Assembly (NCBI RefSeq): GCF_020921035.1
Contig: NC_063160.1
Span: 15,403,095-15,467,094 of the forward strand
Origin: Rhodamnia argentea
Taxonomy: Eukaryota; Streptophyta; Magnoliopsida; Myrtales; Myrtaceae
DNA length: 64,000 bases
Reading direction: 5' to 3'
The translations under genes and the position numbers were made by a program. Positions 32,073 through 56,328 of the stretch are shown here, piece after piece. The number at the start of each line of letters is the position of its first letter. Position 1 is the first letter of the stretch. The notes under the pieces were generated by a model. It did not search any database and was not told the DNA's origin. It worked only from the letters and a program-made list of their open reading frames with translations.

Positions 32073-33364
32073 TTAGTCGCTCATTTCATCAGCATCACTA
32101 TCTCCTTCGAATACTATGTCAGATGTTTCCTCCTCGGGGCTATGATGGTCGATGTCCATTATTGCATCTTCTGATCCCTCTTCCTCACTGTCATGGTCTT
32201 CATAAATCACTGGTTTCACTGGAGTATCTTCCTCCTCTTTCTCATCGATTACCTGCTCAAGAAGTACAGACGGGGTCAGATGACACACCAAACTTTAGTA
32301 CAAATCCCAACTTCGCATTTAGTTATACGTACTCCTGCGTAAAGGACGTCCAAAGAGACAGATAGTTGAAGAGCTGGCCGAAAGGTCGACACTCTCGATT
32401 CAATGAGCTGCAAACAACCACAAGCAAATCAGAAACCCAAAGAAAAGAAAGTCATGTTACGAAATTGGACAAATCTTCCTACACAACCTTGAGATTTTAT
32501 TAAATTTATCCACAGCAGTACGAGTAAAAGAGATGATATTGGAAGGTAAAACATTCTGCTGAAGCTCATATATACTTGCGCTCAAAAGTTTCTTAACATG
32601 GTAACCGGCCCCCATTTCAGACCTGATACAGAGAATTCAAGGCAGCCAGCGAAGCTTCCTGTGACACTATTCCACTAGAGTGCTGAAGCAGTAGTCTTCT
32701 CAGCCAGGGAAGAGCACATACAAGCACAGCACCCCTGCAGCAACAAAGCAAAACAATATTGATGGAGCAGTATCTTCAACAAAAATTTTACAGCCAGGAG
32801 GAAGGCCCCCATAGAACAGCATTAGTGCTGAAAAATCATTCAAGATAATGATTGCATAATCGGAGGCAAAGATTGATAGTGGGAATACATAGAAAGGCTG
32901 CCCAGCATCTAGACCAAGTTCAAAGAGATCACACATCGAAGTCACACAAAACTCTGCAAGAGTACCTAGACATTTATGGCCAACCCTACACGCTATGACA
33001 GCGGAGGACAGTAAATATTGACTACTCTAATTCATATGATAGTTTGGCCAGCAGGTTCAGTGCCGGTATTCTGCTATATAAGATGAATATCCTACATTAT
33101 AAAACATAAATCATGTTTTATTTTACTGACAAAACAAGCAATTGACATGAAGGGAGGGAAAAAGATGGCTTTTGGTCGAATAAGATAGCAACTGTAACAC
33201 CCATACATTTGCAAACAGGACAGTTCTTAACGTCTATATTAGCAAGTAATTGAGCTTCCTTGGTCAATGAGTGTTTTCCTTCAATTTGATGTCGGTAACT
33301 CTTGGCGGTGGATTACAAGTTTAAGATCATCCAGCACAAAATGCCTAAAAATTAATTAGAATAA

Positions 33365-33446
<82 letters not shown>

Positions 33447-34390
33447 CCTGGATTCAACTATGGATATGAGGAATTGCAGAAGCTTAAGAACATCAGATGG
33501 GTTCAAAAGAGAGATAGAATTAGCTATAACCTGCCAGTACAAGCGAGTTTGACACAATTACCATGTGCCTAAATGATCTATCATTATCTTTTCCAGAAAT
33601 AAATAATTATCCAGAAGCATGAAGATAAGATTAAAAGAACACCTTCTCGTCTTGTGTATATAAGCAATCTAAGAGGAGGGCACGGTCATCAGCATGCAAT
33701 GCTTGCTTGAGCAAAACATTAACAGAGTCAGCGCGAGGCTGGGCAAGAGGGGTGAGGTCTTGTTTTTCATGGCTCATGTTTATTCCACCATCTACCAAAT
33801 TTAATTTTTCAAGCTTTTCTCCCATGGTTGGCTCATTCAAATCATCCTCCACAACCCCATCACCAGTCTCACCATTACCTGCCGGGAAAGCGAAACTATG
33901 TTTTCATAATGATGCGACAGTGCTGTTCTACGCATTGTACATACATTCATAAAATCTGACAACCACCATGAAAAACACAGCCTAAAAAGAAACCATAGAC
34001 AACACTAACCAGAGACAAAATAGACATGCAGTCTATGCACATGAGAATGAGAGGCTTCAGCAATGCTATGTATTCTTCAGTTTACTGGAAAAAGAAGAAG
34101 AAGAATGCCATCCACACAGCAACACGCGTCCTACATTTTCTCCTTTTTGGCAATTTAACTAGTGCACCTAATAGCACCATGAACATTGCTACATGCATGC
34201 ATCTCCTTTCTGTTGTTAAATTACTATCGAGCATAATCATATGCGAATTGGCTAATGCAGAGACGAAATAACAGCGGCAACAATATATCATGCAACTGAA
34301 GCACAAGCATATTACAGTACAAAGGCAGGTGAAAAGTAACTTGTAACTACCTTTCCTTGCAGTAACCTTACGGCTTGTTTTCATCATCTC
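32073..34390 (-). pseudogene. 3' portion of a WDR43/UTP5-like gene (Utp12 domain only)
   Basis: Six exons join in frame: 34390-34351, 33878-33643, 33530-33448, 32734-32623, 32407-32333 and 32252-32073, giving 241 residues. The middle part, from SVNVLLKQALHADDRALLLD through VIANSISLLNPSDVLKLLQF, ALPWLRRLLLQHSSGI and LIESRVSTF, is a Utp12 domain. An acidic tail rich in Glu/Asp follows. The family (yeast Utp5, human WDR43, Arabidopsis At5g11240-like) normally has an N-terminal WD40 propeller. No WD40 exon is visible upstream: within 700 bases the sequence turns into the truncated RRP7 copy. The piece is therefore 5'-truncated. The first exon contains ATG ATG, so a Utp12-only protein could in principle be made. 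All splice sites and the frame are intact, so the truncation may be recent or the fragment still used. Confidence 0.75.
33367..33443. repeat. Compound (TA)n(GA)n microsatellite
   Basis: TA repeats (about 33367-33400) run directly into GA repeats (about 33401-33443). They lie in the intron just downstream, on the minus strand, of the WDR43-like exon 33530-33448, ending only a few bases from its donor. Confidence 0.95.
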
Positions 34391-35436
34391 CTAGAAATGC
34401 TAACTTTTACAAGACTTAACACAATGGAGAATCAACTAAACCATGAACTGTGATCTGATCACCGATATTTGATTATCATCCTTCTTTGAACAAACCTTGC
34501 CTTGAATCTTGAACAATAGATTCCAATCTTCCTTATACCTAACTTCAAAATTGCTAAGACGACCGACACATATTCCGTGTTGAAACCAATCATGTATTCA
34601 ACCTTCCTCTTGACAGTTGGGGTCTTATTGCTTGAGACAAGGTTTGCCGCGAAAAGCTCAAGCCAAAGCTAATCCAGCTGAATTCACTATTAAATTTTTC
34701 AAGAGAGTGGTACTTCCATTACCACTGCAAGCAAAAAACATCTCGACCAGTGGTTTTCATAACTCACGGTTCAGTTGACCCTACATCCTTAACCATTCTT
34801 AAGTGTCACATAAAAGACTACTTTTTTCAAGTTTCTAGAGTCTCCTCTGTGTGAATACCAAAGAGAGGAGAGTTCTTCACCCTCTGAAGTACCTGAATAG
34901 AAAATCCAGAAAAACATCTCATGTTTTCAGTCCAATCCCAAGTCTTAAATGGACATAACAATACTTCCCGCTTGGTTTTGTTGTGAAAAGCATAAGAAAT
35001 TAATCATTCCCTTATTTGAAGAGAAGGTAAATCTCTGACTCAAAGGTGGTCAAACAAAATGTGGGATCAAACTTAAGGAACTATTATGTTTTTGCAGTAA
35101 CACAATGACATGTTTTTCTTTGTATTTTCTTGGTAGTGTAAGCCCTACGTCTTCCTGCCAATAGTAGCATCAATTTACTCCTCATGGAAATTCCTCAGTA
35201 GCAGTTCAATAATATATCACATAATTTTGATCCTTTCTACTAGGCCATGTGTGTGTGCACAACACGAATACACATGCACGGGCACATGCTCCCACCCACC
35301 ATACACACAAACACCCTCCAACCCGCATGCACACATACACACAGAGAACATACCCCCACACACACGTACACAGAAAACATGTATTGAAAATGAATGGTAC
35401 GCAGCACTTTGCATAAGAAATAATTCCATTTCTTAC
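34391..35436. other. Junction zone between the WDR43-like fragment and the truncated RRP7 copy
   Basis: 34391-35077 shows no exon I can support on either strand. At 35078 the sequence becomes near-identical to 45161 onward, which marks the left end of the duplicated segment. 35078-35436 is intronic RRP7 sequence and includes a CA-rich microsatellite (about 35250-35380). Confidence 0.65.
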
Positions 35437-37591
35437 TCTTCATTCCTTCTGAAGTATCCTTGTTCCCTGACGAGATACGATAAACCTCCTCCTTATCAGT
35501 TTCATCATTCTTTCTCAGTAGCAGATCACCTTCTTCTGACAAGTTTTGATTGCTTTTCTTCCTCTTCCTCTTGTTAGCCTTCTTAGACATGCCTGCAACA
35601 TGTTGAGGTAAGTATCAAAGGTGTGATATTCAATGCTTTGAATGAAGTAAAACGGATATCTCACAACCCTCATCATGCAGTAAACAATTATTCATAGTCA
35701 TCAAATTTCAATCCCACTATTGAATTCATACAATTCTAGGATCCAAAAACCAGATTGTAGTATATGATCTTGCTACAAAGAGCAGCTGAAAAATTGTAGG
35801 ATCAGTCAGACCAGTAGACTTCTCATGAGTCTCTTGCCCTCTAGCAAAGTAAGTGTAGTTTCCCATGTCGCAAGCCCATGAAGTATCTTTTTTTTGCTCA
35901 AATTCATTATTAAAATAAAAAGGCATTTTCCTAGCATCAAAAGCCCAGTCTTCACCCCTACCACTGTCGAAGTAAACACGAGCAAGAACGAAAAGAAATC
36001 ATCATAGATATCAATTTCCATACATGAAGCCATAATGTGAAGGACCTCAAACACAACTCAAACATCAGAATTACCATCGTCCTCCTCAACAACAACCACA
36101 GCATCAACCCAACAAACACCAGCAAAACCTTCACGTACTCTCAAGATTTCAGTTTTCATAACATTGTGCCGGTATTTTCCAGGAAAAACATGCAAAAAGT
36201 GTCTCCAATACTCTCGTTCTTTAACTTTACTGCATCTTATTTAGTCTCAAGTCAGGTGTTCAGCGTTGCTTCATTTGGTTCTGTTTGCACATAGGTGGCT
36301 TTCGGTGTAGATTCAAGGTTCATGATGATTTCGTGTATTAGTGCCAGCAAAATACGGTCACCTTCACTTTGTTCTTCAACCCAGGAAGGTCTATTCAGTC
36401 AGAAGTCTTGCATAGAGGCGTCAAAAATTACGCACGAGAGAGGATCGCCATAATGCAAAACCAGAATGGTGAGTTTTAACATCCTAATTGGAAATAATGC
36501 TACAATTTTAGTTTTTCTAGCTTAATGTAGCACGTAGCAGGAAACCAAGATCATAGATCTATGATGTGATCCACCGCTTAATCCTCAAAGACACTGCTCC
36601 AGCTTTTACGACTTCTGCTACGAGTAAATTTTCATTGCAGGCACCGACAAGCAAACAACATCACAACCTTATTGCTAGTTATAAACTATATAATCCAGTA
36701 TTCGGAACTTCTGGATGAAAAAAACAAAAAATATTGGCTAGTATTAGCTAACAAAAAGTACAGCTACATACTACTGATTCCTTGAGAATGGTCATCCACC
36801 ACAGAAGTATGATCGACCTCGCTCCTGTCGGGTGCACTGTTTGTTTCCTGTAATTGGTCTCCTTCATCCCTTAACTTGTTATCCTTCTGTTTTTTCCTGA
36901 CAAGTCTCTTTGACTTACCTACATTGCAGAAAATGCTAGAAACAATGAGAACTTGGTAACAAAGTGCAATAGCCAAAGTTCACTTCTACAGAGTGCATAC
37001 TTGCGAGTCTAGTACCGTTATGCCTTGAATATGGTAATGCATATTCTATTTACAACTGAGTATAATCATGACAATCACTAAGAACAGTAAGATACTCACA
37101 TAAAGAGGCACGTCAAACTCCAAAGCAAATTAAATACTAGGTAGCAAAGTGAAAGGCCAATAATTGCTGGAAGCATGGTGTACCCATATGCAGAAACACA
37201 ACAGGAGGCAAGAATACCATATGCTTGAGCAAAAAGAATTCTAGGCTAATGAAGAAGGAAATCAAACTGAAGTCAGACAGGTTTGTTCCAAATACAAACT
37301 ATCGACGGAACAAATAGATCACTAATACCATGCTCAGCCTCCCATCGACCCCATTGCCCACTAGATCCTTTTTCTCCATTTTTCCCTTCTTACCAGATGA
37401 TCCGCTTTTTTCCATTCATTCACTGATCTAACGAACCTACTATGAGGGAAACCAAGAGGAAGGTGGAAAAAGACAAAACAAACATACTACTCCTACGCCA
37501 TCTGACTTGCCAATTGCCATTATTGAAAATATTTACCTTTCTTCTCTCCATGCTCTTCCATTATGCTTCCAACTTCCACTTGATCTGACAT
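35437..37591 (-). pseudogene. 5'-half RRP7-like gene copy (start exon plus two repeat exons)
   Basis: Three exons equivalent to exons 1-3 of the intact gene are present with good splice sites: 37591-37537, 36918-36772 and 35592-35437. They encode MSDQVEVGSIMEEHGEKKG and two Lys-rich modules. No later RRP7 exon follows before the duplicated segment ends at 35078, so the Rrp7 domain is missing. Reading past the last donor enters a CA-rich microsatellite. Compared with the intact copy, module 1 differs at one residue and module 2 at about five of 52. Its leader region near 38290-38520 is also present, so it may still be transcribed. Confidence 0.85.
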
Positions 37592-38929
37592 CATCCAATA
37601 AGCATAAAAAGCTGAACAAATTGAGTCCATCAGACAAATGCTACATTGAATTCTATGCATGATATATCACTTGTAGCAAGAGTTTCACATTTTGTGGACA
37701 TTAACATGTAGGGGTATGGCATGCACATGCTAAAAAACCAAGGCCGGTCACTCACATCAAGTACGGGACACGAGTAACTACGGTTTCTGGGAAAATCGCT
37801 AATCAAATAACAAAATGAGGACATCAAAAGCATTGCCAGAGGAACATTCTCATACACAAAATACATACTCCAACCCAAATCAGCATGCACAAATCTACTC
37901 TGATACAACACAGCTTCATTAAACATATATCGAACAATTGGTAACACGGGTTCAGAAGGTAAAGGAACAGGTCTCTACTGAGCGAATTCCCCTGCTTGCA
38001 TTTGGCAAACAAAAATCCGCACCACAATCATCATATTGAGTGAACCAGGATCACTTATGCTCTTGAGCTTGAGTAAAGTTGGATTCTCATAATAAGACAT
38101 TTGCATACCCTCTCTTGTCCATGAAAAACAAGAATATTTGGCTAATGGGACAACAAAGAGTGTTGGCGAAGGAAGACTAAACTAATGAAGGATGTCAAAC
38201 ACGGACAAGTCCTCAGCATTCATTAAAAGTTGGGAACTAAAATTACTAACCACAGACAGACAGAGAGAGGGAGAGAGTATCGAACCAGAGGCGCGGGTGG
38301 TTGCCAACGAGCTTAGCCGCCGAGGACGTGCAGCGGAGAGCGAGCGATGGCGTGGGTTGTTGCGGGGAGGAGAGGCGTGCGTACGGTGGTCTAACGTTGA
38401 GGCTTCGAAGGCGCGAAGCCGATGGGGGCGGTGGCGGTGGCGGTGGCGGTGGGAGGAAGGGAGAGGGAGAGACGAGACGAGAGAGACGGGGCGAGTGAAC
38501 CACCTTTTCTTTCCCTAGTCTCTGTTTGTCCAACCAAGTTGTTCATTTTATACTAAACTATATTTCACTTTTACCTAACTGAAAACGCTTATTTAAAAAA
38601 AAAAAACGGATTTAGAGTAGAATTAAAACTTATAAACTGACAAAAATCGGAACGAGAATAAAACACACATTAAAATTGAACTGAAAAATATCGAGCACAT
38701 ATTTAATTATTTATCTCAATAGGGAGTTCGTTGTCACTTTGAACTCATGACAACGGAAAATGGGACGATAAAGTTAGTTTCGGATCCAATTTACTTTGGA
38801 ATTTCTATTCTTGAATCGTGATTGTCCTGCCTTTTTTGTCCTACTTTGAAAATCAATTTGCTAATGAAAATTTTCAATAAGGACATGAAATGAACTCTGT
38901 TTCAAATAAAGGTCCGAAATGCTTTGTTT

Positions 38930-39260
38930 GTTTCATAAAAATGGCTTGAAATGTCAATATCAGTATCAAAAAAGAGCCTAACTTAGTAGCTGATTAAGGA
39001 CATTTTGGTCATTTTATTTAATTTTTTTATCTTTATCTTTTTTCTATTTTTTTAAATAAAAAAGTAAATGTAAACAAAAATAAAGCAATAAGAGAAGACA
39101 CGGGCAGGAGGCAACGCTCCCGCCTATGGGCATTGGCGCTTCGACGAGGGTTTGCGAGCCCTCCCCAAAGTCGGGCAGGGTTGGGCGACCCTCGCCCAAG
39201 TTTAGGGGAGGGTCGCGGCCCTAGGCCGGACCTTGGCGAGGGTCGCCGGCATCTTCGAGC
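38930..39260. mobile_element. Dispersed GC-rich repeat with AT-rich flanks (copy 2)
   Basis: An AT-rich lead with the phrase ttggtcattttatttaat is followed by a GC-rich core (about 39095-39255) with gagggtttgcgagccct and gggcgaccctcgccc. It matches 49.45-49.6 kb as part of the large duplication, and 18.0-18.2 kb as an independent family member. Confidence 0.6.
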
Positions 39261-39955
39261 AATTCTTGGACATGGCACGGTCGATTGTTTTGATCCATGT
39301 CAACTTCGACATCATGTCGTTGGACGGAAGGTAGCCGTTGGAGATAGATGCCAAGGTCAAGGAAGACAGGAAGCTCCACTTGACAGTGAGAAGGTCCAAT
39401 GCTTCGAGGTCGGACATCTTCTCGAGGAGGTCACAAGGACTGCCCTCGATCATTCGTAGGCCCTCGGCTCTAGTCGATGGGGTCGTTGGTCCACGCCGAG
39501 GCATCAACAACCCGCCGACAATGCCCGACCCCCTACCTGTGGTGGGGCGGCGGCCAAAGGCACCTATGTATTATTCTTCTTCCCTCAGGTTGCTGCGTGT
39601 TCTTCTCCTTCCAGTTTTTCCTTTTTTTAGTTTTTTTAGTTTTTAATTTAATTTTACTAAAATTCAAGTTTAAATTGTATTTTTACAAAAATGACCTTTG
39701 TTGGCCGAAATATATAGCCTACCGAAGAGGTCAAGCCCTCATCCGAAACCACCACGGCTATCTCGGGCTCTTATTTGAAATAACGAGAGCACTTCAGGCT
39801 CTTATTTGAAACAAAGTCCGCTTGAAGTCATTATTTGAAAAAATGATAGCACTTCGAGCTCTTAATTTAAATTTTTCCATTTTCTAACCATCACGAAGTT
39901 TTCACTTTCTTTGAATATTGTTTCATTTCAAGTTCTAGTTGAGTCCGTTTGGAAC

Positions 39956-40182
39956 AAGGGCTTGCTAATGGGCCAGCACAGACCAAGCATAATAGGCCCG
40001 GTAATATAGCGGGCTGTGCCAAGTACGGCCTGTTTGACATGGCACCGGCCACGTGCCACGCTGGCCTGTCAATGCTACCGGGCGGGTTGCTGGCACGGTC
40101 CGCTACATATGGGTTGTGCCGGGCAAGGCTCAAAGAAAGCCGGGCGGAACCAAACCGTGCCCTGGCCCATTGCCCACCCCTA
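39956..40182. mobile_element. Non-autonomous hAT-type element with terminal inverted repeats
   Basis: The left end (aagggcttgctaatgggcc) and the reverse complement of the right end (taggggtgggcaatgggcc) form imperfect inverted repeats of about 25 bases. Flanking 8-bp duplications are tttggaac (39948-39955) and tttggagc (40183-40190), which differ at one base. An 8-bp target duplication and a TAGGGNTGGCAA-like end are hAT features. The 227-bp interior is GC-rich and codes for nothing. It lies in the part of the spacer that unit 2 lacks. Confidence 0.75.
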
Positions 40183-41138
40183 TTTGGAGCTGCTTGATAA
40201 TCCGGTTTTCTTTTCTCGTCGCTGAACTTGTGTATTTTTGTTTCAGTTGGGTCGCTCTCATTAGTAAGAGAGAAGAACGTCTTCTCTCTTACACGGCGTT
40301 TGGAGTTTTTGGCCCCGAGTCACGCCCTGAGCCACTTTTTTCTTCCTCTCTCGGTTAAGTCCTTGAAAGGCCACTCTGAGGCTTCATCGTGCAGCTCCGG
40401 AAGAATGTCCGGAGGCATGCCGGTAACACTTTGGATCCATTTCGAGTCAACCAACGGCCAATTTGAGTTTTGCCGACATAATACCAAGAACTTACCAGAA
40501 GACTGCAGGATCTAACAGCACCTTCGACCCCCTAAAGGTAGGATGAAGTCCCACTACGTCGCTCCATAAGGCCGAGGACGAGGTTGGCACTACGGGATCC
40601 GCAATCCAATGCATTTCCTCTTTCACCCATTCTGTTAAGCTCTCCGCTGCGGGCGTGAGAAGTTAAGACAGGGCATGCCATCTTTTCTCAGCTCAAACGG
40701 TTGCTGCATTGTTTCTGCAACCAGTGTCCTAGACTTTCCAGAGAACCGACTTCTCGTGTACATAGTAATAATGCTGTTTTCTTGTTTCGATGCTTCAGAT
40801 AGATGAATGATGCATGCAACCTAAGGAAAAATAGTATTGATTACACTTCATTTCAAAGTGAGATTTCCAGCCTTGGAAATGCTAAGATGAAAAACTCCAA
40901 GATCTCTCTCAATGTAACTACGTATGAGAATGGCCGAATGGTCCTAGAAACAAATAGATAGAGACTGGAACCCAGCGGCCAGCCTTTTTCTATTTTCTCT
41001 TCAAAAAGAGAGCAAAAGACAAGGTGGCGACGCCTTAAATTAGCCAATTGAAGTTCCTGGTGTTTTCAAAGAGAGTAGTCAAGGTAGCATATTCATCACT
41101 TGAATGCCTTTGCTAGGACACAGAGTCCTCTAGCTGTT

Positions 41139-44100
41139 TCAGTAAGGTCGGAACTTCCTGGCAGCTCTCAACTGTTGTATTCGTTTTCTATCTTGCTCGA
41201 ATTTACTCTGCAACATCATTATCTCTGCACCAAACGAAAATTATAAGAAAAAAATAACAAAAACCACATCGCCAGGAAACATCCTAGCTCATTCAATGAT
41301 CAGATTGCCCATTCAGCAGGAAACTGTAGTCAAATGGTCCCCAATAATTCTTGACAGGTGATGATGCTTTGTATATGCAAACTAAAACCAGTAGCCGAGT
41401 GCCAAATAAAAGTCGACTACATGGACGTTTATGTGCCACATCGACAAAGATGCATTTCCTATATCCAATCGAAAGTGTTTACAGCAATATCAGACAGAAA
41501 TCTCTCTTTTTGTATGTGCTAACCAATATTTGATGTTCTTTCTCCTCACAAAAGAAACCATCTACTGAACAATGAAATGGAGAAATCAACATGCTGGAAG
41601 AAAATGGAAACTTTATGAATGCCAAAAAAATTAGACAGTGGTAGTCATTGAAGGTTATACAGCAGTAAACATCATGAAGGCTTAAAACCAGGATAAGAGA
41701 AGCACACACAATTGGGCAAACAGGATAATAGACAGGCCATACAAGCTCGAATGCATGTCATGCATGATGTGCCTGCATATAGCTACAGACAGACAACATA
41801 TGCAAATAGACATGCATAGGGACACATCCGAATATGGCCTATAGTATGCAGCTCCATACAGCTAGGCAGCTATTTTGAATCTTTGATGAAACAACCAAAG
41901 AGCGAGGAGATTTCTATTTAATGGGTCAGATCTAGGCAAAATATTGAAATGTCACATGCTCGATCATCCCACTTCAGAAATTAGCAGATGACACTATTTT
42001 GGCAAGTTATTGCATCGTGAAACATATGCTCCGTGTACGTGTTCAACATTATAGAAGTGTGAAGAGAAGCGCAAATAAAAGTAACAAGTATCCTCCTGAT
42101 TTTCTGAATGCATTTCATCACCCCAAGGACCTATCTAGCATGTCTGATGTTAGTTTATTTAGATATCAGTAACAGAAAATCAATATGGTATGTTAATGAA
42201 GTAAAATTTTACAAACAGGAGCAAATAAGGGAGGAGAATAAAGCTGAAACAATGTGAAAAAAAGCAACTAAAAAAACCTACTATCAACATTCCAAAGTTG
42301 CTCGTACTATTGTCTTAGCAACAAAAGAAGTTTGGCTCTTACCCAAGCAGTAGTCTCTAAAAAGAACGAAATTAAGCTACAAGAGAAACTCATCATACCG
42401 CTCCTCTGTGCTTCTCGTCTCTGAAATCGGTAAAAATCCGACCCAACTTCCTTGCGCTTCTTCTTAGCCAGCTTGTCCTCCAAAGCAGCCTGGGAAACAG
42501 AGCCAACAACAATTCCACTTTCACTATCTGTGGTCTTCTTCCTTCCTTTGTGATGGGTTACCACAGTCCATCCTCCCTCTGCAACACGGGCTTCTCTTTC
42601 TTTTCTTTCCTGTGGAGCGAGAATGATAAATGTGAATACAAGTGTGGCTAACTGAAAACTGCCGACAAACTGAAAGAAATAAATTAAAAGATCAAGCATA
42701 GGTAAATAGAAAATGATGATAATTTATCATTCAGCTCGGTACAAACACCAACCAACATGTATCTGAAGTAAATATCACTCATACAAGAATGAATGCACAA
42801 ACATTTGAGTCTTGCAAAACAGGGAAAATGTCCACACTGAACCAGCAAAAACCAGTAAAACATGGCAATAACCTCATGTTGCTGACAAGAGGGCACTTGA
42901 TCATTTCATTCACCCATGCCATGTTAAACCCGACTCTTTAGGTTTAAACTATATTCAAAATTACATCATCAGTGAACCTAGTTGTCCCGCTGGGCAAGCA
43001 TACCTTTGAGATGATGGCGAGGTACATAAATTGGGGATACTCTTTTATTCATGAAACATAGCACCTTAAAAGGATATGCTGTCACTTTACAGGGATAGGT
43101 GCATGACCATTATCCACATCAGACAATACTAAAGGACACTCGAAAAACCAAATAAGAAGTAAAGAATCGATAGATCTGCAATACCTGTTCCAGTGTCGCC
43201 TCGTGAGTGGTTATAAAATCATCAATTCTTTGTTGCAATACCTCTATTCCCGGTCTTTTCTGATAGTATTCCATCACCCACTCTGCATGTCAAGTTCATA
43301 TGAGGAGGTCCAAACAACGTGGTTCCATGTGAAAAATTTCCCTATGATTGCTCCAAGAAGTTGACAGTGACAAGATTGAAACAATTCTCAGCCCTATTTA
43401 GCAAGACTCTCAGAGTGCATCTTGGCGATGAAAAATAATCAAAGGAGGAGTTAAATTTCATACTCTTCATTCCTTTGGATTCGTCCTCATCCCCAGAAGA
43501 AATTTGATGAACATCATCCGGATCAGGTTCAGAGTTCTTATCCACTACTTGGTCAATATCTCTTGGAGACTGTAGGAGCTTCCTTTTCTTTCTCCTAGCT
43601 TTCTTAGACTTACCTACAGCGTGGGAAGAACAATGAATCACTGCTCACAGAAAAAGAGTTATCGTCAACAACCAATATTGCATCTGTCAGGTAAAACAAC
43701 TACTTTGCAAGCCACTAGTTATATTCCCAAGGTAAGGAATAGGATTCAGCTACTACCAGATAACCTCAGAGCCACCACCATATCCTTTTCAAGAACATCT
43801 TGATAATGGCTCTTACATACCCCTCATAGTCATAGGCAAATGTCTGATTCCTTACGTTTTGTTACTTCAGAAGTATCTCCATTCCCTGAGGAGGAGGCAG
43901 GATGAACCTCCCCAGGATCAGGATAGTCATTCTTTTTCAGTAGTCGGCCAAGTTCTTCCAGAAAGTCGCGATCCTTCCTTTTCTTTCTCCTAGCCTTCTG
44001 AGTCTTACCTGGTACAAAGGTGAAACAAGAAACACCAGTAAACAATATAATTTGATCCACAATATCTATATTGTAAGTAGGGTGAAACATTTATCTGCAA

Positions 44101-47100
44101 GCCTTATCTACATTAATTCACAATAAGAGCGTCTCCTTCCATAACTCCTTTAGAGCATACTATCATTTTCCTATTACCAGACAGTCTCAAGGCCAAGATG
44201 ATATATTCTTTCACAGGACATATCGAAATAAACTGTATGTATCACTAATAAGCATAAGCAAGCATCAAAGTTTTTACTTTTCATTCCTTCAGAAGCATCC
44301 TCAATCCTTAACAACATATGATGAACCTCTGGATCAGGTTCATCATACTTTGTTGATGGGTGGTCACCTTCTGACAAGTCATGATTCTTCTTCTTCTTCC
44401 TCTTGACCTTCTTCAATTTACCTGCATCATGGATAAGGCGAATAACAATGAGAACAAATGCTTTCTAAATAAAGTAAATGCGATACTTCGCAATCTTCAT
44501 GACGCATTGCCCCCAAAACATGATTATTCATAGTCATCAAACTTCAATCAACAGTAGTGAGATAATAGAATCTAAGGATCCTACCAGCTGCATGACCCTG
44601 ATAAAAATAGGAGACAAATTGTGGGACCAGTCGGACCATTAGACTTCAGTCTTCTACCACCTTCCGCATACATATATTCATAGCCTCAAACCAATCCCAA
44701 TGGGTTAATCACTTTCTGGATTGAATTATTTAGTGAAAACAATGAACTGTAAGGAATATTCTTTTTGCAAAAAAAAAAAACATATCACTGTAATCTAAAG
44801 AAGGAGCTAGCTGTGAGGAAGATCCTCAAACACAACTCAACAATCAGAGTTTGTTGAATCATAAACAATAACCACAGTACTGACCAAACTAAATCCTACA
44901 CCACCTCACTTTGCTCTTCATGTCTATTTTTTCGCTTATAAGGGGAAATACGCGACTGAATTCTTTTCAGAGTAGCATGCACATATCGTAGGACCACTCA
45001 GACCATTGAAATTTGGATGAGTCTTGTGTCTTCTTCCAACTAAGTACATTTTCCCATTAGGCAGGCCCAGGAGTATCACTTTCTCGATTAAAGTTATGAT
45101 AAACTAAATGACATTTTCCTAGCATCAAAATCTCAGTATCGACCCCTACCCTTAAAATCAGAACTATTATGTTTTTGCAGTAACACAATGGCATGTTTTT
45201 CTTCGTATTTTCTTGGTAGTGTAAGCCCTATGTCTTCCTGCCAATAGTATCGTCAATTTACTCCTCATGGAGATTCCTCAGTAGCAGTTAAATAGTATAT
45301 CACATAATTTTGATCCTTTCTACTAGGCCATGTGTGTGTGCATGACACAAATACACATGCACAGGCACATGCACCCACCCACCATACACACAAACAAATG
45401 CACACACAAACACCCTCCAACCCGCACGCACACATACACATAGAGAACATACCCCCACACACACATACACAGAAAACATGTATTGAAAATGAATGGTATG
45501 CAGCACTTTGCATAAGAAAAAATTCCATTTCTTACTCTTCATTCCTTCTGAAGTATCCTTGTTCCCTGACGAGACACGATAAACCTCCTCCTTATCAGTT
45601 TCATCATTCTTTCCCAGAAGCAGATCACCTTCTTCTGACAAGTTTTGATTCCTTTTCTTCCTCTTCCTCTCGTTAGCCTTCTTAGACGTGCCTGCAACAT
45701 GTTGAGGTAAGTATCAAAGGTGTGACATCCAATGCTTCGAATGAAGTAAAACTGATATCTCACAACCCTCATCGTGCAGTAAACAATTATTCATAGTCAT
45801 CAAATTTCAATCCCACTATTGAATTCATACAATTCTAGGATCCAAAAACCCGATTGTAGTATATGATCTTTGCTACAAAGAGCAGCTGAAAAATTGTAGG
45901 ATCAGTCGGACCAGTAGACTTCTCAAGAGTCTCTTGCCTTCTACCAAAGTAAGTGTAGTTTCCCATGTCGCAAGCCAACGAAGTATCTTTTTTTCGCTCA
46001 AATTCATTTTTAAAATAAAAAGGCATTTTCCTAGCATCAAAAGCCCAGTGTTCACCCCTACCACTGTCGAAGTAAACATGAGCAAGAACGATAAGAAATC
46101 ATCATAGATATCAATTTCCATACATGAAGCCATAATGTGAAGGACCTCAAACACAACTCAAACATCAGAATTACCATTGTCCTCCTCAACAACAGCCACA
46201 GCATCAACCCAACAGACACCAGCAAAACCTTCACGTACTCTCAAGATTTCAGTTTTCATAACATTGCGCCAGTATTTTCCAGGAAAAACATGCAAAAAGT
46301 GTCTCCAATACTCTCATTCTTTAACTTTACTGAATCTTATTTAGTCTCAAGTCAGGTGTCCAGCATTGCTTCATTGGGTTCTGTTTGCACATAGGTGGCT
46401 TTCAGTGTAGATTCAAGGTTCATGATGATTGCGTGTATTAGTGCGAGCAAAATACGATCACCTTCACTTTGTTCTTCAACCCAGGAAGGTATATTCAGTC
46501 AGAAGTCTTGCATAGAGGAGTCAAAAATTATGCACGAGAGAGGATTGCCATATTGCAAAACCAGAATGGTGAGTTTTAACATCCTAATTGGAAATAATGC
46601 TACAATTTTAGTTTTTCTAGCTTAATGTAGCATGTAGCAGGAAACCAAGATCATAGATCTATGATTCCTCAAAGACACTGCTCCAGCTTTTACGACTTCT
46701 GCTACGAGTAAATTTCCATTGCAGGCACCGACAAGCAAACAACATCACAACCTTATTGCTAGTTATAAACTATATAATCCAGTATTCGGAACTTCTGGAT
46801 GAAAAAAACAAAAAATATTGGCTAGTATTAGCAAACAAAAAGTACAGCTACATACTACTGATTCCTTGAGAATGGTCATCCACCACAGAAGTATGATCGA
46901 CCTCGCTCCTGTCGGGTGCACTGTTTGTTTCCTGTAATTGGTCTCCTTCATCCCTTAACTTGTTATCCTTCTGTTTTTTCCTGACATGTCTCTTTGACTT
47001 ACCTACATTGCAGAAAATGCTAGAAACAATGAAAACTTGGTAACAAAGTGCAATAGCCAAAGTTCACTTCTACAGAGTGCATACTTGCGAGTCCAGTACC

Positions 47101-47680
47101 ATTATGCCTTGAATTTGGTAATGCATATTCTATTTACAACTGAGTATAATCATGACAATCACTAAGAACAGTAAGATACTCACATAAAGAGGCACGTCAA
47201 ACTCCAAAGCAAATTAAATACTAGGTAGCAAAGTGAAAGGCCAATTTGCTGGAAGCATGGTGTACCCATATGCAGAAACACAGCAGGAGGCAAGAATACC
47301 ATATGCTTGAGCAAAAAGAATTCAAGGCTAATGAAGAAGGAAATCAAACTGAAGTCAGACAGATTTGTTCCAAATCCAAACTATCGACGAAACAAATAGA
47401 TCACTAATACCATGCTCAGCCTCCCATTGACCCCCATTATACTGCCCACTAGAACCTTTTTTCTCCATTTTTCCCTTCTTACCAGATGATCTGCTTTTTT
47501 CCATTCGTCCACTGATCTAACCAACCTACTATGAGGGGAACCAATAGGAAGGTGGAAAAAGACAAAACAACCATGCTACTCCTAAGCCATCTGACTTGCC
47601 GATTGCCATTATTGAAAATATTTACCTTTCTTCTCTCCATGCTCTTCCATTATGCTTCCAATTTCCACTTGATCTGACAT
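41139..47680 (-). CDS. RRP7-like ribosomal RNA-processing protein, intact copy
   Basis: Nine exons join in frame to 399 aa: 47680-47626, 47002-46856, 45691-45536, 44421-44278, 44008-43856, 43613-43464, 43282-43185, 42609-42399 and 41224-41139. Exon 1 gives the start MSDQVEIGS. Exons 2-6 each encode one Lys-rich to acidic module of 48-52 residues (residues about 19-268), for example SKKARRKKRK followed by VHQISSGDEDESKGMK. Exons 7-9 encode the C-terminal Rrp7 domain (WVMEYYQKRPGIEVLQQ, GGWTVVTHHKGRKKTTDSES, DFYRFQRREAQRSEIMMLQ) and end RAARKFRPY. RRP7 acts in the nucleolus on the small-subunit precursor; the basic modules may aid nucleolar targeting or RNA binding (inference). The gene spans the junction of the two duplicated units at 45160/45161, inside intron 3. 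It is the only full-length member of the cluster. Confidence 0.93.
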
Positions 47681-48650
47681 CGTCAAATAAGAATAAAAGG
47701 CCGAACAAATTGACTCCATCAGACATATGCTACATTGAATTCTATGCATGATATATCACTTGTAGCAAGAGTTTCACATTTTGTGGACATTAACATGTAG
47801 GGGTATGGCATGCACATGCTAAAAAACCAAGGCCGGTCACTCACATCAAGTACGGGACACAAGTACCTACAGTTTCTGGGAAAATCACTAATCAAGTAAC
47901 AAAATGAGGACATCAAAGGCATTGCCAGAGGAACATTCTCATACACAAAATACATACTCCAACCCAAATCAGCATGCACAAATCTACTCTGATACAACAC
48001 AGCTTCATTAAACATATATCGAACAATTGGTAACACGGGTTCAGAAGGTAAAGGAACAGGTCTCTACTGAGCGAATTCCCCTGCTTGCAGTTGGCAAACA
48101 AAAACCCGCACCACAATCATCATATTGAGTGAACCAGGATCACTTATGCTCTTGAGCTTAAGTAAAGTCGGATTCTCATACTAAGACATTTGCATCCCCT
48201 CTCTTGTCCATGAAAAACAAGAATATTTGGCTAATGGGACAACAAAGAGCGTTGGCGAAGGAAGACTAAACTAATGAAGGATGTCAAACACGGACAAGTC
48301 CTCAGCATTCATTAAAAGTTGGGAACTAAAATTACTAACCACAGATAGACAGACAGATAGACAGACACAGACAGACAGAGAGAGGGAGAGAGTATCGAAC
48401 CAGAGGCGCGGGTGGTTGCCAACGAGCTTAGCCGCCGAGGACGTGCAACGGAGAGCAAGCGATGGCGTGGGTTGTTGCGGGGAGGAGAGGCGCGCGTACG
48501 GTGGTCTAACGTTGAGGCTTCGAAGGCGCGAAGCCGATGGTGGCGGTGGCGGTGGCGGTGGGGGAGGGAGAGACGAGACGAGAGAGACGGGGCGAGTGAA
48601 CCACCTTTTCTTTCCCTAGTCTCTATTTGTCCAAACAAGTTGTTCATTTT
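47681..48650 (-). promoter_or_regulatory. Leader and promoter side of the intact RRP7 gene
   Basis: A GC-rich leader block at about 48390-48610 contains a (GGT/GGC)n tract near 48540-48560 and ends on the minus strand at a possible donor CTG/GTTCGA. A leader intron down to near the ATG is likely, as the region between is AT-rich and nearly the same in both units. The acceptor I favour in unit 1 (ttgttcag, just upstream of 37611) reads ttgttcgg in unit 2, so the intact gene must use another acceptor or an unspliced leader. No TATA box was assigned. Confidence 0.4.
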
Positions 48651-49214
48651 ATATTAAACTCTATTTTACTTTTACCTAACTGAAAACGCTTATTTAAAAA
48701 AAAAACGAATTTAGAGTAGAATTAAAACTTATAAACTGACAAAAGTCGGAACGAGAATAAAACATACATTAAAATTGAACTGAAAAATATCGAGCACATT
48801 ATTTAATTTTTTTTTCTCAATTGGGAGTTCGTTGTTCCTTTGAATGTTTCTCAAATCTCATGACGACAGAAAATGAGACGTTAAAGTTAGTTTTAGATTC
48901 GGTTTGCTTTTGAATTTCTATTCTTGAATTGTGATTGCCCTCTTTTTTTTTTTTTTTGGCCCTATTTTCTAGTGAAAATTTCCAAATAAGGGCGTGAAAT
49001 GAATTATGTTTCGGATAAGAGTCTGAAGTGCTTTCTTTGTTTGAAAAAAAGGATTTGAAATGTCAATATCACTATCAAAAAAGGGGCCTAACTTACTAGC
49101 TGATTAAGGGCATTTTTGTCATTTTATTTTATTTTATTAATATTTTTCTTTATATTTTACTTTTTCTTTTTTTGAAAAACTTTAAAAAAAGTAAAAGTAA
49201 ACAAAAATAAGCGA

Positions 49215-49435
49215 CCCACCTGCGCATGGCGTAGTTGGTTGAGCTTGAGCCCTTCTTCCTCTCATAAAAAGTTGAGGGTTCAAATCTTCTGGCCGAGTTC
49301 CTCGATTTAAGAGGAGGGCCCCGGCGGTGGGTTGCTGGGCTAGTCTCCCTCAAGGTATAGTCACTAGTTGGCCCTCGGGCCAGACGCCGGGCAAAGCCTG
49401 GTGGGGCCGATGGATCTTAGATATAAAAAAAAAAA
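49215..49435 (+). mobile_element. tRNA-derived SINE with 14-bp target-site duplication
   Basis: The head contains an A-box-like word tggcgtagttgg (49227-49238) and a B-box-like word ggttcaaatct (49277-49287) at tRNA-like spacing, as expected for an RNA polymerase III promoter. A GC-rich body follows and the element ends in an A run. It is flanked by perfect 14-bp repeats acaaaaataagcga at 49201-49214 and 49436-49449. Unit 1 lacks it and shows only one copy of a similar sequence (acaaaaataaagca, near 39074), so it inserted into unit 2 after the duplication. Confidence 0.9.
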
Positions 49436-49444
49436 ACAAAAATA

Positions 49445-49600
49445 AGCGAGAAGAGAGACACAAGCGGGAGGCAACGCTCCCTCTTGTGGGCATCGGTGCC
49501 TCGGCGAGGGTTTGCGAGCCCTTGCTAGAGTTGGGCGAGGTTGGGCGACCCTCGCCCGAGTCCGAGGGAGGGCCGCGGCCCTAGACCCGACCTTGGCGAT
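49445..49600. mobile_element. Dispersed GC-rich repeat core (copy 3, unit 2)
   Basis: It matches 39095-39240 of unit 1: ggaggcaacgctccc, gcgagggtttgcgagccc and gggcgaccctcgccc occur in the same order. Its right side is cut at 49600 by the hAT element. Confidence 0.6.
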
Positions 49601-50979
49601 AGACGTGGCCAAATGAAATCGTGGGCTCGGAACCGGCCCTTGAAGGGGGCGGTTCCCCCCTTCCCCCTAACGGTTCTTTGTTGCTTCAACAAAAAAAAAT
49701 TGATTTTTTTTAAAGTTAAATAACCCTCCCATTCTCTATAAATACATATCCTCTCCCTTTCATTTTTCTCACAAATCCTCATATTCCTGGATATGATTCT
49801 CGTGAGTATACATATTGAGAAGACGACGACGATAATATCAACGTTGTTCTCATTCCGAACGTCGAGCACGTCCCAACACAAAAAAGTCTTCATCCTCCTA
49901 CCGTTATTGAAAAAACATCGACGGCAAATGAACCGGAATGGAAGGGCCGAGAGAGTACATCCAACTTGTGGCTGCACTTCGACAAGCTATATGATGAAAG
50001 CGAAGGTATAAATTGTAAATATTGTTAACAAACATACAAATTTACCAAAGGAAACGGTTACGGAACATTCTGTCGGCATCTAATGAAAAAATATCCAACA
50101 CAAGCGAGGATCGACATTACGCGACAACAAATTTCCAGGTACGCCAATCCTAATACTCATCCTTTATTCCGTTATACCGATGTACTTTATAAATAAACAT
50201 TAGCTAAATATGTTGCCCTTGATCATGCTCTATTTACTACTGGTGAAAATTTTAATTTGAAATTTTTGATAAATACTTGCGTTGGTTCGCAAGCACCAAC
50301 TATTCTGAAAACCACTCTTAAATGCGAACTTTCGCATCTTTATAACAAATAAAAAAAATATTTGGCAAAATTTTTTGCGGAATCCAATGGACGTGTGCAT
50401 TTAGGTAGCGATATTTGGAGTGATCTTTGGCAAATTCATTCTTATATGGGTGTCATGTGTCATTTGATAGGTGACGATTTGGACAATTCAAAAAGACTTA
50501 TTGCATTTCGAGTTTTTTATGAAAAGCATTCGGCTCATAATATTTATAGAATAATTATGCAAGTTTTAGAATAATATAATTTGATAAATAAAGTATTTTC
50601 AATTGGTTTTGATAATGCCACCGCAAATACTGCTTTCATTCCCAAATTAGAAAATATTTGTAAACCCTCTTTTGGCGGATAATTTTTTCACATTAGAAAT
50701 GCTTGCAATGTTTTAAATTTATGTGTACGAGATGGTTTACGAACTCTTGAGACTTCTCTAGCCCCAATAAAGGGTGCAATTAAATTTTTATAGAGTCGTG
50801 CCCATTTTATGAAAGCATGGAGAAAATTTTGTAAACAACATGAGAGAAGAGAAAAAATGTTTTCAAAAGATATTCTGACTCGTTGGAATTCTACGTACGA
50901 GTTGCTTCATCAAATTTTTGATTATAAAGATTTATTATGTATGTTTATTTCGCAAAATATTCCCGAAATGGTCGTCCAG
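49600..50979 (+). mobile_element. Truncated and decayed hAT transposon with transposase relics
   Basis: The left end tagacgtggccaaatg resembles hAT terminal repeats and abuts sequence shared with unit 1. From about 50362 the plus strand shows transposase relics: DIWSDLWQIHSYMGVMCHL, then an FHIRNACNVLNLCVRDGL phrase, and near 50870 the diagnostic DILTRWNSTYELL. Stops and frame changes interrupt it. The right terminal repeat is missing: the element stops at about 50979, where shared spacer resumes. Insertion followed by a deletion that removed both the element's right end and the equivalent of unit-1 bases 39240-40423 explains this. Confidence 0.85.
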
Positions 50980-51694
50980 TAACACTTTGGATCCGTTTTG
51001 AGTTGACCAACGACCAATTTGAGTTTTGTTGACATAATACCGAGAACTTACCAGAAGACTGAAGGATCTAACCGCACCTTCGACCCCCAAAAGGTAGGAC
51101 GAAGTCCCACTAGGTCGCTCCATAAGGCCGAGGACGAGGTTGGCACTACGGGATCCGCAATCCAATGCATTTCCTCGTTCACCCATTCTGTTAAGCTCCC
51201 CGCTGCGGGCGTGAGAAGTTAAAGACAGGGCATGCCATCTTTTCTCAGCTCAAACGGTTGCTGCATTGTTTCTCGAACCAGTGTCCTAGACTTTCCAGAG
51301 AACCGACTTCTCGTGTACATAGTAATAATGCTGTTTTCTTGTTTCGATGCTTCATATAGATGAATGATGCATGCAGCTTAAGGAAAATAGCACTGATTAC
51401 ACTTCATTTCAAAGTGAGATTTCCAGCCTTGGAAATGCTTAGATGAAAAACTCCAAGATCTCTCTCAATGTAACTACGTATGAGAATGGCCGAATGGTCC
51501 TAGAAACAAATAGATAGAGACTGGAACCCCGTGGCCAGCCTTTTTCTATTTTCTCTTCAAAAAGAGAGCAAAGGAAAAGGTGGCGACGCCTTAAATTAGC
51601 CAATTGAAGTTCCCGGTGTTTTCAAAGAGAGTAGTCAAGGTAGCATATTCATCACTTGAATGCCTTTGCTAGGACACATAGTCCTCTAGCTGTT

Positions 51695-54600
51695 TCAGTA
51701 AGGTCGGAACTTCCAGGCAGCTCTCAACTGTTGTATTCGCTTTCTATCTTGCTCGAATTTACTCTGCAACATCATTATCTCTGCACCAAACGAAAATTAT
51801 AAGAAAAAAATTTACAAAAACCACATCGCCAGGAAACATCCTAGCTTATTCAATGGCCAGATTGCCCATTCAGCAGGAAACTGTAGTCGAATGGTCCCCA
51901 ATAATTCTTGACAGGTGGTGATGCTTCGTCTATGCAAACTAAAACCAGTAGCCGAGTGCCAAATAAAAGTCGACTACTATATGCCACATCAACAAAGAGG
52001 AATTTCCCTATATCCAATCGAAAGTGTTTACAGCAATATCAGAAAGAAATCTCTCTTTTTGTATCCGCTCACCAATATTTTTTGTTCTTTCTCCTCACAA
52101 AAGAAACCATCTACTGAACAATGAAATGGAGAAATCAACACGCTGGAAGAACATGGAAACTTTATGAATGCCAAAAAAATTAGACAGTGGTAGTCATTGA
52201 AGGTTATACAGCAGTAAACATCACGAGGCTTAAAACCAGGCTAAGAGAAGCACACACAATTGGGCAAACAGGATAATAGACAGGCCATACAAGCTCGAAT
52301 GCATGTCATGCATGATGTGCCTGCATATAGCTACAGACAGACAACATATGCAAATAGACATGCATAGGCACACATCCGAATATGGCCTATAGTATGCAGC
52401 TCCATACAGCTAGGCAGCTATTTTGAATCTTTGATGAAACAACCAAAGAGCGAGGAGATTTCTATTTAATGGGTCAGATCTGGGCAAAATATTGAAATGT
52501 CACACGCTTGATCATCCCACTTCAGAAATTAGCAGATGACACTATCTTGGCAAGTTATTGCATAGTGAAATATATGCTCAGTGTACGTGTTCAACATTAT
52601 AGAAGTGTGAAGAGAAGCTCAAATAAAAGTAACAAGTATCCTCCTGATTTTCTGAATGCATTTCATCATCCCAAGGACCAATCTAGCATGTCTGACGTTA
52701 GTTTATTTAGAAATCAGTAACAGAAAATCAATATGGTATGTTAATGAAGTAAATTTTACAAACAGGAGCAAATAAGGGAGGAGAATAAAGCTGAAACAAT
52801 GTGAAAAAAAGCAACTAAAAAAAGCTCCTATCAACATTCCAAAGTTGCTTGTGCTATTGTCTCAGCAACAAAAGAAGTTTGGCTCTTACCCAAGCAGTAG
52901 TTTCTAAAAAGAACGAAATTAAGCTACAGGAGAAACTTATCATACCACTCCTCTGCGCTTCTCTTCTCTGAAATCGGTAGAAATCCGATCCAACTTCCTT
53001 GCGCTTCTTCTTAGCCAGCTTGTCCTCCAAAGCAGCCTGGGAAACAGAGCCAACAACAATTCCACTTTCACTATCTGTGGTCTTCTTCCTTCCTTTGTGA
53101 TGGGTTACCACAGTCCATCCTCCCTCTGCAACACGGGCTTCTCTTTCTCTTCTTTCCTGTGGAGCGAGAATGATAAATGTGAATACAAGTGTGGCTAACT
53201 GAAAACCGCCGACAAACTGAAAGAAATAAATTAAAAGATCAAGCACAGGTAAATAGACGATGATGATAATTTATGATTCGTCTTGGTACAAACACCAACC
53301 AACATGTATCTGAAGTAAATATCACTCATACAAGAATGAATGCACAAACATTTAAGTCTTGCAAAACAGGGAAAATGTCCACACTGAACCAGCAAAAACC
53401 AGTAAAACATGGCAATAACCTCATGTTGCTGACAAGAGGGCACTTGATCATTTCGTTCACCCATGCCATATTAAACCCGACTCTTTAGGTTTAAACTATA
53501 TTCAAAATTACATCATCAGTGAACCTAATTATCCTGCTGGGCAAGCATATCTTTGAGATGACGGCGAGGTACTTAAATTGGGGATACTCTTTTATTCATG
53601 AAACATCGCACCTTAAAAGGATATGCTGTCGCTTTACAGGGATAGGTGCATGACCTTTATCCACGTCAGACAATACTCAAGGACACTCGAAAACCCAAAT
53701 AAGAAGTAAAGAATCGATAGATCTGCAATACCTGTTCCAGTGTCGCCTCATGAGTGGTTATAAAATCATCAATTCTTTGTAGCAATACCTCTATTCCCGG
53801 TCTTTTCTGATAGTATTCCATCACCCACTCTGCATGTCAATCTACTCTGTTGATGGGTGGTCACCTTCTGATGAGTCATGATTCTTCTTCTTCTTCCTCT
53901 TGATCTTCTTCAATTTGCCTGCATCATGGATAAGGCAAATAACAATGAGAACAAATGCTTTTTAAATAAAGTAAATGTGATACTTCGCAACCTTCATGGT
54001 GAGTTGTCCCCAAAACATGATTATTCAGTCATCAAACTTCAATCAACAGTAGCAAGATAATAGAATCTAAGGATCCATACCAACTGCATGACCCCGACAA
54101 AAATAGGAGACAAATTGTGGGACCAGTCAGATCATTAGACTTCAGTCTTTCACCCCTTCCACATACATACATTCATAGCCTTAAACCAATCCCAATGGGT
54201 TAATCACTTTCTGGTTCGAATTATTTAGTGAAAACAATGAACTATAAGGAATATTCTTTGTGCAAAAAAAAAAAAAACTTATCACTGTAATCTAAAGATG
54301 GAGCTAGCTGTGAGGAAGACCCTCAAGCACAACCCGACAATCAGAGTTTGTTGAATCATAAACAATAACCACAGTACTGACCAAACTAAATCCTACACTC
54401 CCTCACTTTGCTCTCCATGTCTATTTTTTCGCTTATATGGGGAATACATTATTGAATTCTTCCAGAGGAGCATGTGCATATTGTAGGACCACTCAGATCA
54501 TCGAAATTTGGATGAGTCTCGTGTCTTCTTCCAACTAAGTACATTTTCCCACTTGGCAGGCCCAGGAGTATCACTTTCTCGATCAAAGTTATGATAAATT

Positions 54601-56328
54601 AAATGACATTTTCCTAGCATCAAAATCTCAGTATCCATCCCTACCCTTAAAGTTATTATGGGGCAAGATTGATAAGAAATCCATCACAGAGACTACCATC
54701 CATGAATGAAGTCATAATATGAAACCTGTTACGCGACTCAGCTATCAGAATTTGAACCATTATCTCCTCAAGAATAACCCCAACTTTGACCCAATAAACA
54801 CCAGCAATAACTTAACGTACTCTCAACATCCTGTTTTGCATAATATTGTGCATATATTTCCAGGTAAAGCATGCACTAAGTGCCTCCATTACTCTGGTTC
54901 TTCAACTTTCATGGATGTTAGTCTCAATTTCAGGTGTTCAACATTGCTTTTTTTGATTCTATTGCTTATAGGTGAATTTCAGGATAGATTCATGCTTCAT
55001 GATCACGTATCCTAATCGCAAGCAAAATACAGTCACCTTTATTTTGTTTTTCCCACCCACTGGTCATATATTAAGTCAAAAGTGTTGCGCAGATGTGTCA
55101 GAAAGCATGCACAAGTGAGGGTAGCCATATTTCAGAACCAGAAATGATCTTTTATCCTAATCAGAAAAAATGCTACAATCCCAGTTTTTCTAGCTTAATT
55201 AAGCATTTAGCAGGAAAGGAAGATCATAGATATAGATGTGATCCACCATTTAATCCTCAGAGACACTTCAATTTAACTAAAAATTTCAGCTTTTACAACT
55301 TTCAGATACCAGTCAATTTCCATTATAATCATCGACAAGCAAACAATATCAGACAGTTATTGCCAATAACAAACTATATAATCCTGTCTTGGGAACTTCT
55401 TGATGATACATGCAGACCTGATATTGGTACATGCTTCCTTCAGAATGGTCATCCACCATAGAAGTATGATGAACCTTGTTTCTGCCAGGTCCACCGTTCG
55501 TTTCCAGTATTTGGTTTCCTTTATTGCCATCCTTCCTATTTTTCTTGATAGATCCTTTTGACTTACCTACATTATGAAAAATGCAACAAATAATGAAAAG
55601 TTGTAGCAAATAAGGCCAATAGCCAATGTTGACTTGCCAAAGAAATCAGGTACTTGCAAGTCTAGCAGCATTATGCATTTCAATTTGCTACTCAGTTTTT
55701 TCATAAAAGTATTTCAATATGTCACTCTAGTCACAACTGAGCATTATCATGATGATCATTTAGCACAATTAGATACTCACACAAAGGGGCAAAGTCAAAC
55801 TCGAGAGAAAAGTAAATGCTAGGTGGCCAAGTGCAAGGGAAATAACTGCTGAAAGCATCATGACAGGTGTAACCTTCATTAGAACTCTCCCCTTCTAACC
55901 CCCTAGACTTTCCAAAGCAAAAACACAACAACAGCGAAAAAAAAAAAAGCGTATGCTTAGCGAAAAGAAATTTTAGGCTAATGAAGAAGGAAATCTAACT
56001 GCAGTCTGATGAATTTATTCCAAATGCAAAACTATTGAATCAACACTTGGTTCACCAATAACATGCTCAGCCTCCGACAGACCCCAATAAACTTTTTACC
56101 CAGTAGATCATCTTTTCTATCTTTTTCCTTCTTGCTAGGCAATTCCATTTTTTCCATTCTTTTACCACCTTAACCAACCTAGTATCTAGGACAGGAAAGG
56201 CAAGGAGAAAAAAGACAAAATAATGGTGCTAAATCCTAAACCATTTGATCTGCCATGAATGAAATTCTTTACCTTTCTTCTCTCCTTGCCTTTTCAATAT
56301 GCTTCCTACTTCCCCCTTGATCTGACAT
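51695..56328 (-). pseudogene. Right RRP7-like gene copy, damaged
   Basis: The 3' exons are intact: 53829-53732, 53156-52946 and 51780-51695 encode the Rrp7 domain, with one notable change (RAAWKFRPY instead of RAARKFRPY). Upstream, exon 4 survives only as 53918-53842, which reads KLKKIKRKKKKNHDSSEG and then meets a TAG; its donor and exons 5 and 6 are deleted. Farther upstream, in diverged sequence, lie a module exon (55566 to about 55431) and a start exon (56328-56273). The start exon is 56 nt long instead of 55, which shifts the frame. No equivalent of exon 3 was found. A normal RRP7 protein cannot be made by joining these exons, so it is called a pseudogene, although the 3' part alone remains open. 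Confidence 0.8.

Follow-up and report, generated by a model that had tools for sequence, protein, structure and literature searches.

Chimeras formed by tandem duplication are usually studied as sources of new functions beside intact parents. That chimeras can sit at duplication junctions is already known from Sdic and HERC5/6. The available part of the report on Sdic in Drosophila melanogaster describes a chimera that stems from a segmental duplication and belongs to a tandem array with gene conversion (PMC7475035). For HERC5/6 of bats and rodents, the available text describes 5' and 3' parts derived from two neighbouring paralogues, at their own locus, with unequal crossing-over inferred as the cause (PMC7775381). 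New gene structures arising through tandem duplication are also described in the accessible portion of a survey of Drosophila yakuba (PMC5460883). Here we describe an intact RRP7 gene (J) at the junction of a tandem duplication in Rhodamnia argentea, which is probably a chimera of two RRP7 paralogues, termed A and X. It lies in a 64,000-nucleotide stretch (positions 15,403,095 to 15,467,094 of NC_063160.1, assembly GCF_020921035.1), hereafter the window, to which all coordinates refer unless another contig is named.

J resembles HERC5/6 in being composed of neighbouring paralogues. It differs from that system, as the available text presents it, in its out-of-register join with short shared words, in that no intact parent was found, and in that RRP7 is a ribosome-assembly factor (PMC7775381). 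Sdic joins the different genes sw and AnxB10 in the part of the report available, whereas both parents of J would be RRP7 and the type of protein would be unchanged (PMC7475035). The Drosophila yakuba work is, in its accessible portion, a population survey of expression, whereas J is the sole complete copy found in one assembly (PMC5460883). The special point of J is that the junction holds the only complete copy found of a housekeeping gene. The RRP7 family acts in the nucleolus, in the processing of 18S pre-rRNA. In Arabidopsis, a role of RRP7 in P' site cleavage is reported in the available text (PMC9048941). No report of a plant RRP7 duplication or of an RRP7 junction chimera was found in the literature searched.

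An Intact RRP7 Gene Across a Duplication Junction

Self-BLAST of the window gave three pairs of blocks on the same strand and in the same order, each with E=0.0: 35078-39083 matches 45161-49210 (92.7%), 40420-43293 matches 50976-53840 (95.8%), and 44346-45156 matches 53843-54651 (91.9%). Homology at the left ends of the two units begins at 35078/45161 and homology at their right ends stops at 45156/54651. The units, the junction between them and the gene that crosses it are as follows.

35078..45156, no strand: unit 1, A-type RRP7 5' half, spacer and X-type 3' half (self-BLAST)
45161..54651, no strand: unit 2, second tandem copy (self-BLAST)
45157..45160: duplication junction, four filler bases in J intron 3 (ends of homology, sequence comparison)
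41139..47680, minus strand: coding span of the junction RRP7 gene (J), an open 1200-bp spliced frame, PF12923 E=1.7e-27
47680-47626, 47002-46856 and 45691-45536, minus strand: J exons 1-3
44421-44278, 44008-43856 and 43613-43464, minus strand: J exons 4-6
43282-43185, 42609-42399 and 41224-41139, minus strand: J exons 7-9
43464..47002, minus strand: J exons 2-6, five homologous repeat exons rich in lysine and arginine (K/R), phase 1 at both ends

The 1200 bp of the spliced J frame include the stop codon and encode 399 amino acids in nine exons, with GT-AG borders at all eight introns. Residues 277-399 fit the RRP7 C-terminal domain PF12923 over profile positions 3-120 of 120, at 96.3 bits against a curated cut-off of 23.3, and this was the sole Pfam family matched at E<=1. 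Among PDB sequences, human RRP7A (E=9.7e-16) and yeast Rrp7 (E=2.9e-9) both match the C-terminal part of J, and all four PDB matches begin at query residue 262 or beyond. The C-terminal RAARKFRPY of J corresponds to RAQRKFRPY in human and KAKRKFNPY in yeast. The Rrp7 proteins of yeast and human have a folded N-terminal domain, which was not taken as defining here; the Pfam model spans the C-terminal domain alone. J is thus like the family (PF12923; human RRP7A, 7mq8; yeast Rrp7, 4m5d) in its complete C-terminal domain ending in RKFRPY, and differs in an N-terminal part made of five K/R-rich repeats.

On either side of J are incomplete RRP7 copies, all on the same strand. From left to right the order of pieces is A 5' half, X-type 3', A-type 5', X-type 3', X 5' and Y 3' remnant.

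35437..37591, minus strand: left truncated RRP7 (A), exons 37591-37537, 36918-36772 and 35592-35437 open
51695..53918, minus strand: right RRP7 3' half, with exon 4 cut to half (TAG where the deletion falls) and exons 7-9; exons 5-6 deleted
53829-53732, 53156-52946 and 51780-51695, minus strand: right RRP7 exons 7, 8 and 9
54480..~57300, minus strand: older 5' half of an X-type RRP7, which runs on into the right 3' half
61101..61994, minus strand: old, decayed RRP7 3' remnant (Y) with fragments of exon 8 and its flanking introns

The left copy stops after exon 3: exons 4-9 had no match in 20000-35077, 40420-45156 had no BLAST match in 15000-35077, and no RRP7 3' exons were found in the left flank, where what did match was spacer and simple-repeat sequence. 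In the right copy, a 1050-bp gap runs from the middle of exon 4 to just before exon 7, with a TAG at the join and the exon 7 acceptor kept. Its C-terminal RKFRPY, a motif common to J and human RRP7A, carries a change of R to W. In the X 5' half, exon 1 (~56328-56273) has one extra base after a start codon that matches that of J, and exon 2 (~55566-55431) lacks a donor at the position of the J exon 2 donor. The X 5' half matches both A-type halves at ~70% identity with gaps and ~77% without (BLAST). From the Y remnant it seems that three or more older gene copies, whole or in part, once stood in the array. No RRP7 5' exons were found beyond 62 kb, as far as 84 kb.

The original prediction, made from the letters of the window, had proposed two head-to-tail copies of ~10 kb, and the three collinear blocks bear this out. 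Its edges at 35078 and 45161 agree with self-BLAST, and the third, placed at 54654, is at 54651. The 399-amino-acid full frame that it drew across the unit boundary in intron 3 is upheld by the nine exons and their introns, as is its view that the flanking genes are truncated or broken. Its inventory of pieces was right for the two units, but the older X 5' half and the older 3' remnant had escaped it.

Register and Breakpoint of the Join

When the X 5' half is aligned with the A-type 5' half, the match starts at 54480, inside the duplicated segment, and passes 54651 unchanged, with an ungapped identity of 69-78% just inside that point and 73-80% just beyond it. Because the alignment is unbroken through 54651, the right-hand X3'-X5' gene would be an old, collinear adjacency, and its arrangement is apparently older than the duplication. 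At the junction, by contrast, intron 3 of paralogue A joins intron 2 of paralogue X, out of register. The exon 4 region of J (44252-44647) and its exon 3 region (45510-45922) are 67.1% identical with gaps and ~75% without. The main BLAST match between A and X gives 69.5% with gaps and ~77% without, close to this figure. Since the A exon 3 region resembles the X exon 4 region at the level of A against X, J seems to carry both paralogues' versions of one ancestral exon. The unit boundary therefore has a 5' part from one paralogue on one side and a 3' part from another on the other, and the units that meet there lie head to tail, as in a chimeric gene at a tandem-duplication junction.

Homology to A ends at 45161 and homology to X at 45156, 5 bp apart. 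One join predicts such proximity, and two independent truncations would not explain it. On the minus strand the breakpoint runs from ...CATAATAGTTC on the A side through TGAT into TTTAAGGGTAGGG... on the X side. At the matching places in the parents, the sequence is CATAATA in X and CTTAAG in the left flank of A, so that the short words CATAATA and TTAAG occur at both parents' breaks beside the 4-base filler. Joining at short homologies is more likely here, as far as the breakpoint letters suggest, than homologous crossing-over between long introns, because the two introns (A intron 3 and X intron 2) are not equivalent and share short words only.

J exons 2-6 offer an explanation of why such a join could work. 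All ten pairs among these five exons are homologous, with 0 of 1000 shuffles reaching the observed score. Because each is a repeat exon with phase 1 at both ends, their introns can be joined in frame, and the J frame survives the join.

Search of the Assembly for Other Complete Copies

The genome searched comprises 346,658,060 bases in 74 contigs, in which the window is C11:15403095-15467094. With PF12923, all three matches in the assembly fall in the window (six candidates scored). With the J protein, 17 of the 18 matches at E<=10 lie in the window, at 35432-55570, and the other is on contig C8 (E=0.73; 27 candidates scored). No second complete RRP7 frame was found in the 346.7-Mb assembly by these family and protein searches, which work exon by exon and score the best candidates only, so 'only copy' means the only copy found. 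A search with the Utp12 family PF04003 gave three matches from seven candidates, none in the window and none at a locus on contig C10, and so missed two intron-split genes, which are described below. Exon-by-exon family searches thus miss split genes, and the sole-copy claim for RRP7 leans on the protein search. Searches of 14 control genomes with PF12923 and PF04003 gave no matches.

Proposed Origin of the Junction Gene

Before the event, an A-type RRP7 5' half would have stood beside a Utp12-domain gene, with a complete X-type RRP7 at higher coordinates, both on the minus strand. A segment from A intron 3 to X intron 2 would then have been duplicated head to tail through short homologies. 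The new junction would have set the A promoter region and exons 1-3 ahead of the remaining exons of X, forming a hybrid intron whose splicing would yield the J frame. The phase-1 repeat exons would have preserved the frame, leaving the chimera with one K/R-rich repeat more and its C-terminal domain complete. Exons 5-6, a splice donor and a conserved residue may later have disappeared from the parental X, while the chimera, presumably working as RRP7, stayed the sole complete copy. The original prediction had left two models side by side, a new chimeric gene and an ancestral J. The first is favoured by a right-hand gene in register and a J out of register, and the second is disfavoured; the choice turns on the two older pieces that it had missed. 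Its proposal of exchange between intron copies is right as to the short shared words at the break, but the introns are not equivalent and homologous crossing-over is the less likely route. The symmetric repeat exons, which account for a working join, had gone unseen.

Divergence and Constraint

In exons 7-9, J and the right copy are separated by three nonsynonymous and seven synonymous changes; a simple site-count test, which ignores transition bias and uses small counts of changes, gives P=0.001. Between J and the left copy, exons 1-3 differ by seven nonsynonymous changes and one synonymous. The split into nonsynonymous and synonymous changes differs between these two classes of exons (Fisher P=0.025, on small numbers). 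Against the older X exon 2, the proportions of nonsynonymous (pN) and synonymous (pS) differences of J are 0.226 and 0.218. These comparisons show C-terminal exons 7-9 that appear constrained between copies, and repeat exons with no sign of protein constraint. The C-terminal exons of the right copy were either constrained for part of the time or converted from J.

Divergence is uneven along the units. The Kimura two-parameter distance (K2P) between them rises abruptly from 0.036 to 0.186 at ~48750-48800, upstream of the gene; at 44278-45156 it is 0.077, against 0.039-0.043 in the remaining 3' half. Divergence is far higher in the spacers at 48751-50975 and ~38650-40419 than in the gene halves, and 39240-40419 has no long match to 49600-50975. 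The unit 2 spacer holds an insert and a stretch that are absent from unit 1.

49211-49416, unit 2: 206-bp insert like a tRNA-derived short interspersed element (tRNA-SINE-like), flanking repeat AACAAAAATAAGCGA

From its appearance we take this insert to be tRNA-SINE-like. The other stretch is presumably hAT-like by resemblance, and two pieces of it matched no family in Pfam. The mismatch in divergence would be accounted for if gene conversion had homogenised the gene halves, or if one unit had had its spacer replaced. Either would leave the register argument unaffected but make the age uncertain. At a rate of 6.5e-9, K2P values of 0.036-0.077 would correspond to ~3-6 million years and 0.186 to ~14 million years, but these dates are not relied on because gene halves and spacers disagree.

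Weighing the Readings

Several observations weigh against a chimeric origin of J from A and X. Its polarity is read from one genome, and if the lesions of the X 5' half are older than the duplication, no intact parent would have existed. The protein score of exon 3 is 100 to exon 6, 88 to exon 5 and 75 to exon 4, so that the case for equating A exon 3 with X exon 4 comes chiefly from the flanking intron sequence. Of the aligned noncoding sites, 33% differ between A and X (K2P 0.44, global alignment), a distance that makes orthology by level of similarity rough. With X as outgroup, J exons 1-3 are not better conserved than those of the left truncated copy: both of the two assignable coding changes fall on the J copy, and noncoding changes number 33 on the left against 35 at the junction. 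The spacers, with K2P of 0.186 or unalignable against 0.036-0.077 for the gene halves, mean that conversion or spacer replacement must supplement a single clean event.

The opposite polarity, in which J is the ancestral intact RRP7 and the copies to its left and right are remains left by later duplications in a tandem array, we regard as unlikely. It would account for J alone being complete; erosion of outer array copies is indeed seen in the A 5' half and in the Y remnant; and the K/R exons could have duplicated within the gene first. Yet it needs left and right truncations that end no more than 5 bp apart in a 10-kb unit, and it has to face a right-hand gene that remains collinear, across 54651, with the A-type 5' half. 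That two haplotypes or mis-joined repeats were placed in series is very improbable. The evidence does come from a single assembly, but the units differ by ~4-8% in introns, the SINE-like insert and another stretch occur in unit 2 only, 33900-35077 has one genomic place, and the locus lies within a 23.9-Mb contig; moreover, if the junction were removed, the matches found would contain no complete RRP7 frame. It is also quite doubtful, though compatible with the chimera, that J is not the only active RRP7 locus here and that the right copy still makes a short RRP7 by exon skipping. Its exons 7-9 are open (RRP7 E=3.9e-27), differ from those of J mostly synonymously and keep the exon 7 acceptor, but exon 2 has no donor where J has one, the candidate donors that follow are, as judged by eye, out of phase 1, exon 1 has its extra base, and RKFRPY its R to W change.

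The Utp12-Domain Neighbour and Other Genes

Two further genes lie to the left of the duplication.

32076..33878, minus strand: Utp12-domain gene (UTP5/WDR43-like), 3' exons, lying downstream of the left RRP7 5' half
28904-30697, plus strand: pentatricopeptide repeat (PPR) protein gene, 597 amino acids, single open frame

The joined exon peptides of the Utp12-domain gene match PF04003 (E=8.8e-18) and Utp5 in the PDB (E=1.6e-9). Upstream exons of its own were not identified in the window. Left RRP7 exon 3 ends in phase 1, and the same-strand Utp12-domain exons downstream begin in phase 1 at 33878. A candidate for a short exon, read by eye near 34386, likewise ends at a phase-1 donor. Rrp7 (UtpC) and Utp5 (UtpA) are both proteins of the small-subunit processome, according to the available text (PMC3879963). 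It is conceivable, if improbable, that the left A-type 5' half is spliced in frame onto the Utp12-domain exons from 33878, giving an RRP7-Utp12 processome fusion, while the A-type leader drives J. If so, one RRP7 5' half (promoter region and K/R-rich exons 1-3) would serve two ribosome-assembly genes.

In the assembly, four of the five matches to the Utp12 peptides fall in the window and the fifth is on contig C6 (E=2.8). A WD40 query gave 18 matches, six of them at C10:8098859-8101957 and the others weaker. A WD40-Utp12 gene split by translocation between the window and C10 was considered and dropped, as the C10 locus looks complete, with downstream exons of its own, read from translations, and an acidic end. 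One of these exons resembles the Utp12-domain peptide (46% over 41 amino acids, E=0.002). C10:8098859 to ~8107700 seems to hold a separate WD40 gene of UTP5/WDR43 type, the Utp12-domain gene of the window being a second, different one. Beyond the window, at 64001-84000 in extended coordinates, translations read as a CONSTANS-like B-box protein at ~67.9 kb (plus strand) and, as a single open frame at ~79.1 kb (minus strand), a 6-phosphogluconate dehydrogenase.

Implications for RRP7

The chimera seems to have taken the place of its parents and to be left as the one complete copy of a conserved gene for ribosome assembly. How this could be tolerated is suggested by the way J is built: symmetric, weakly constrained repeat exons would make its introns interchangeable.

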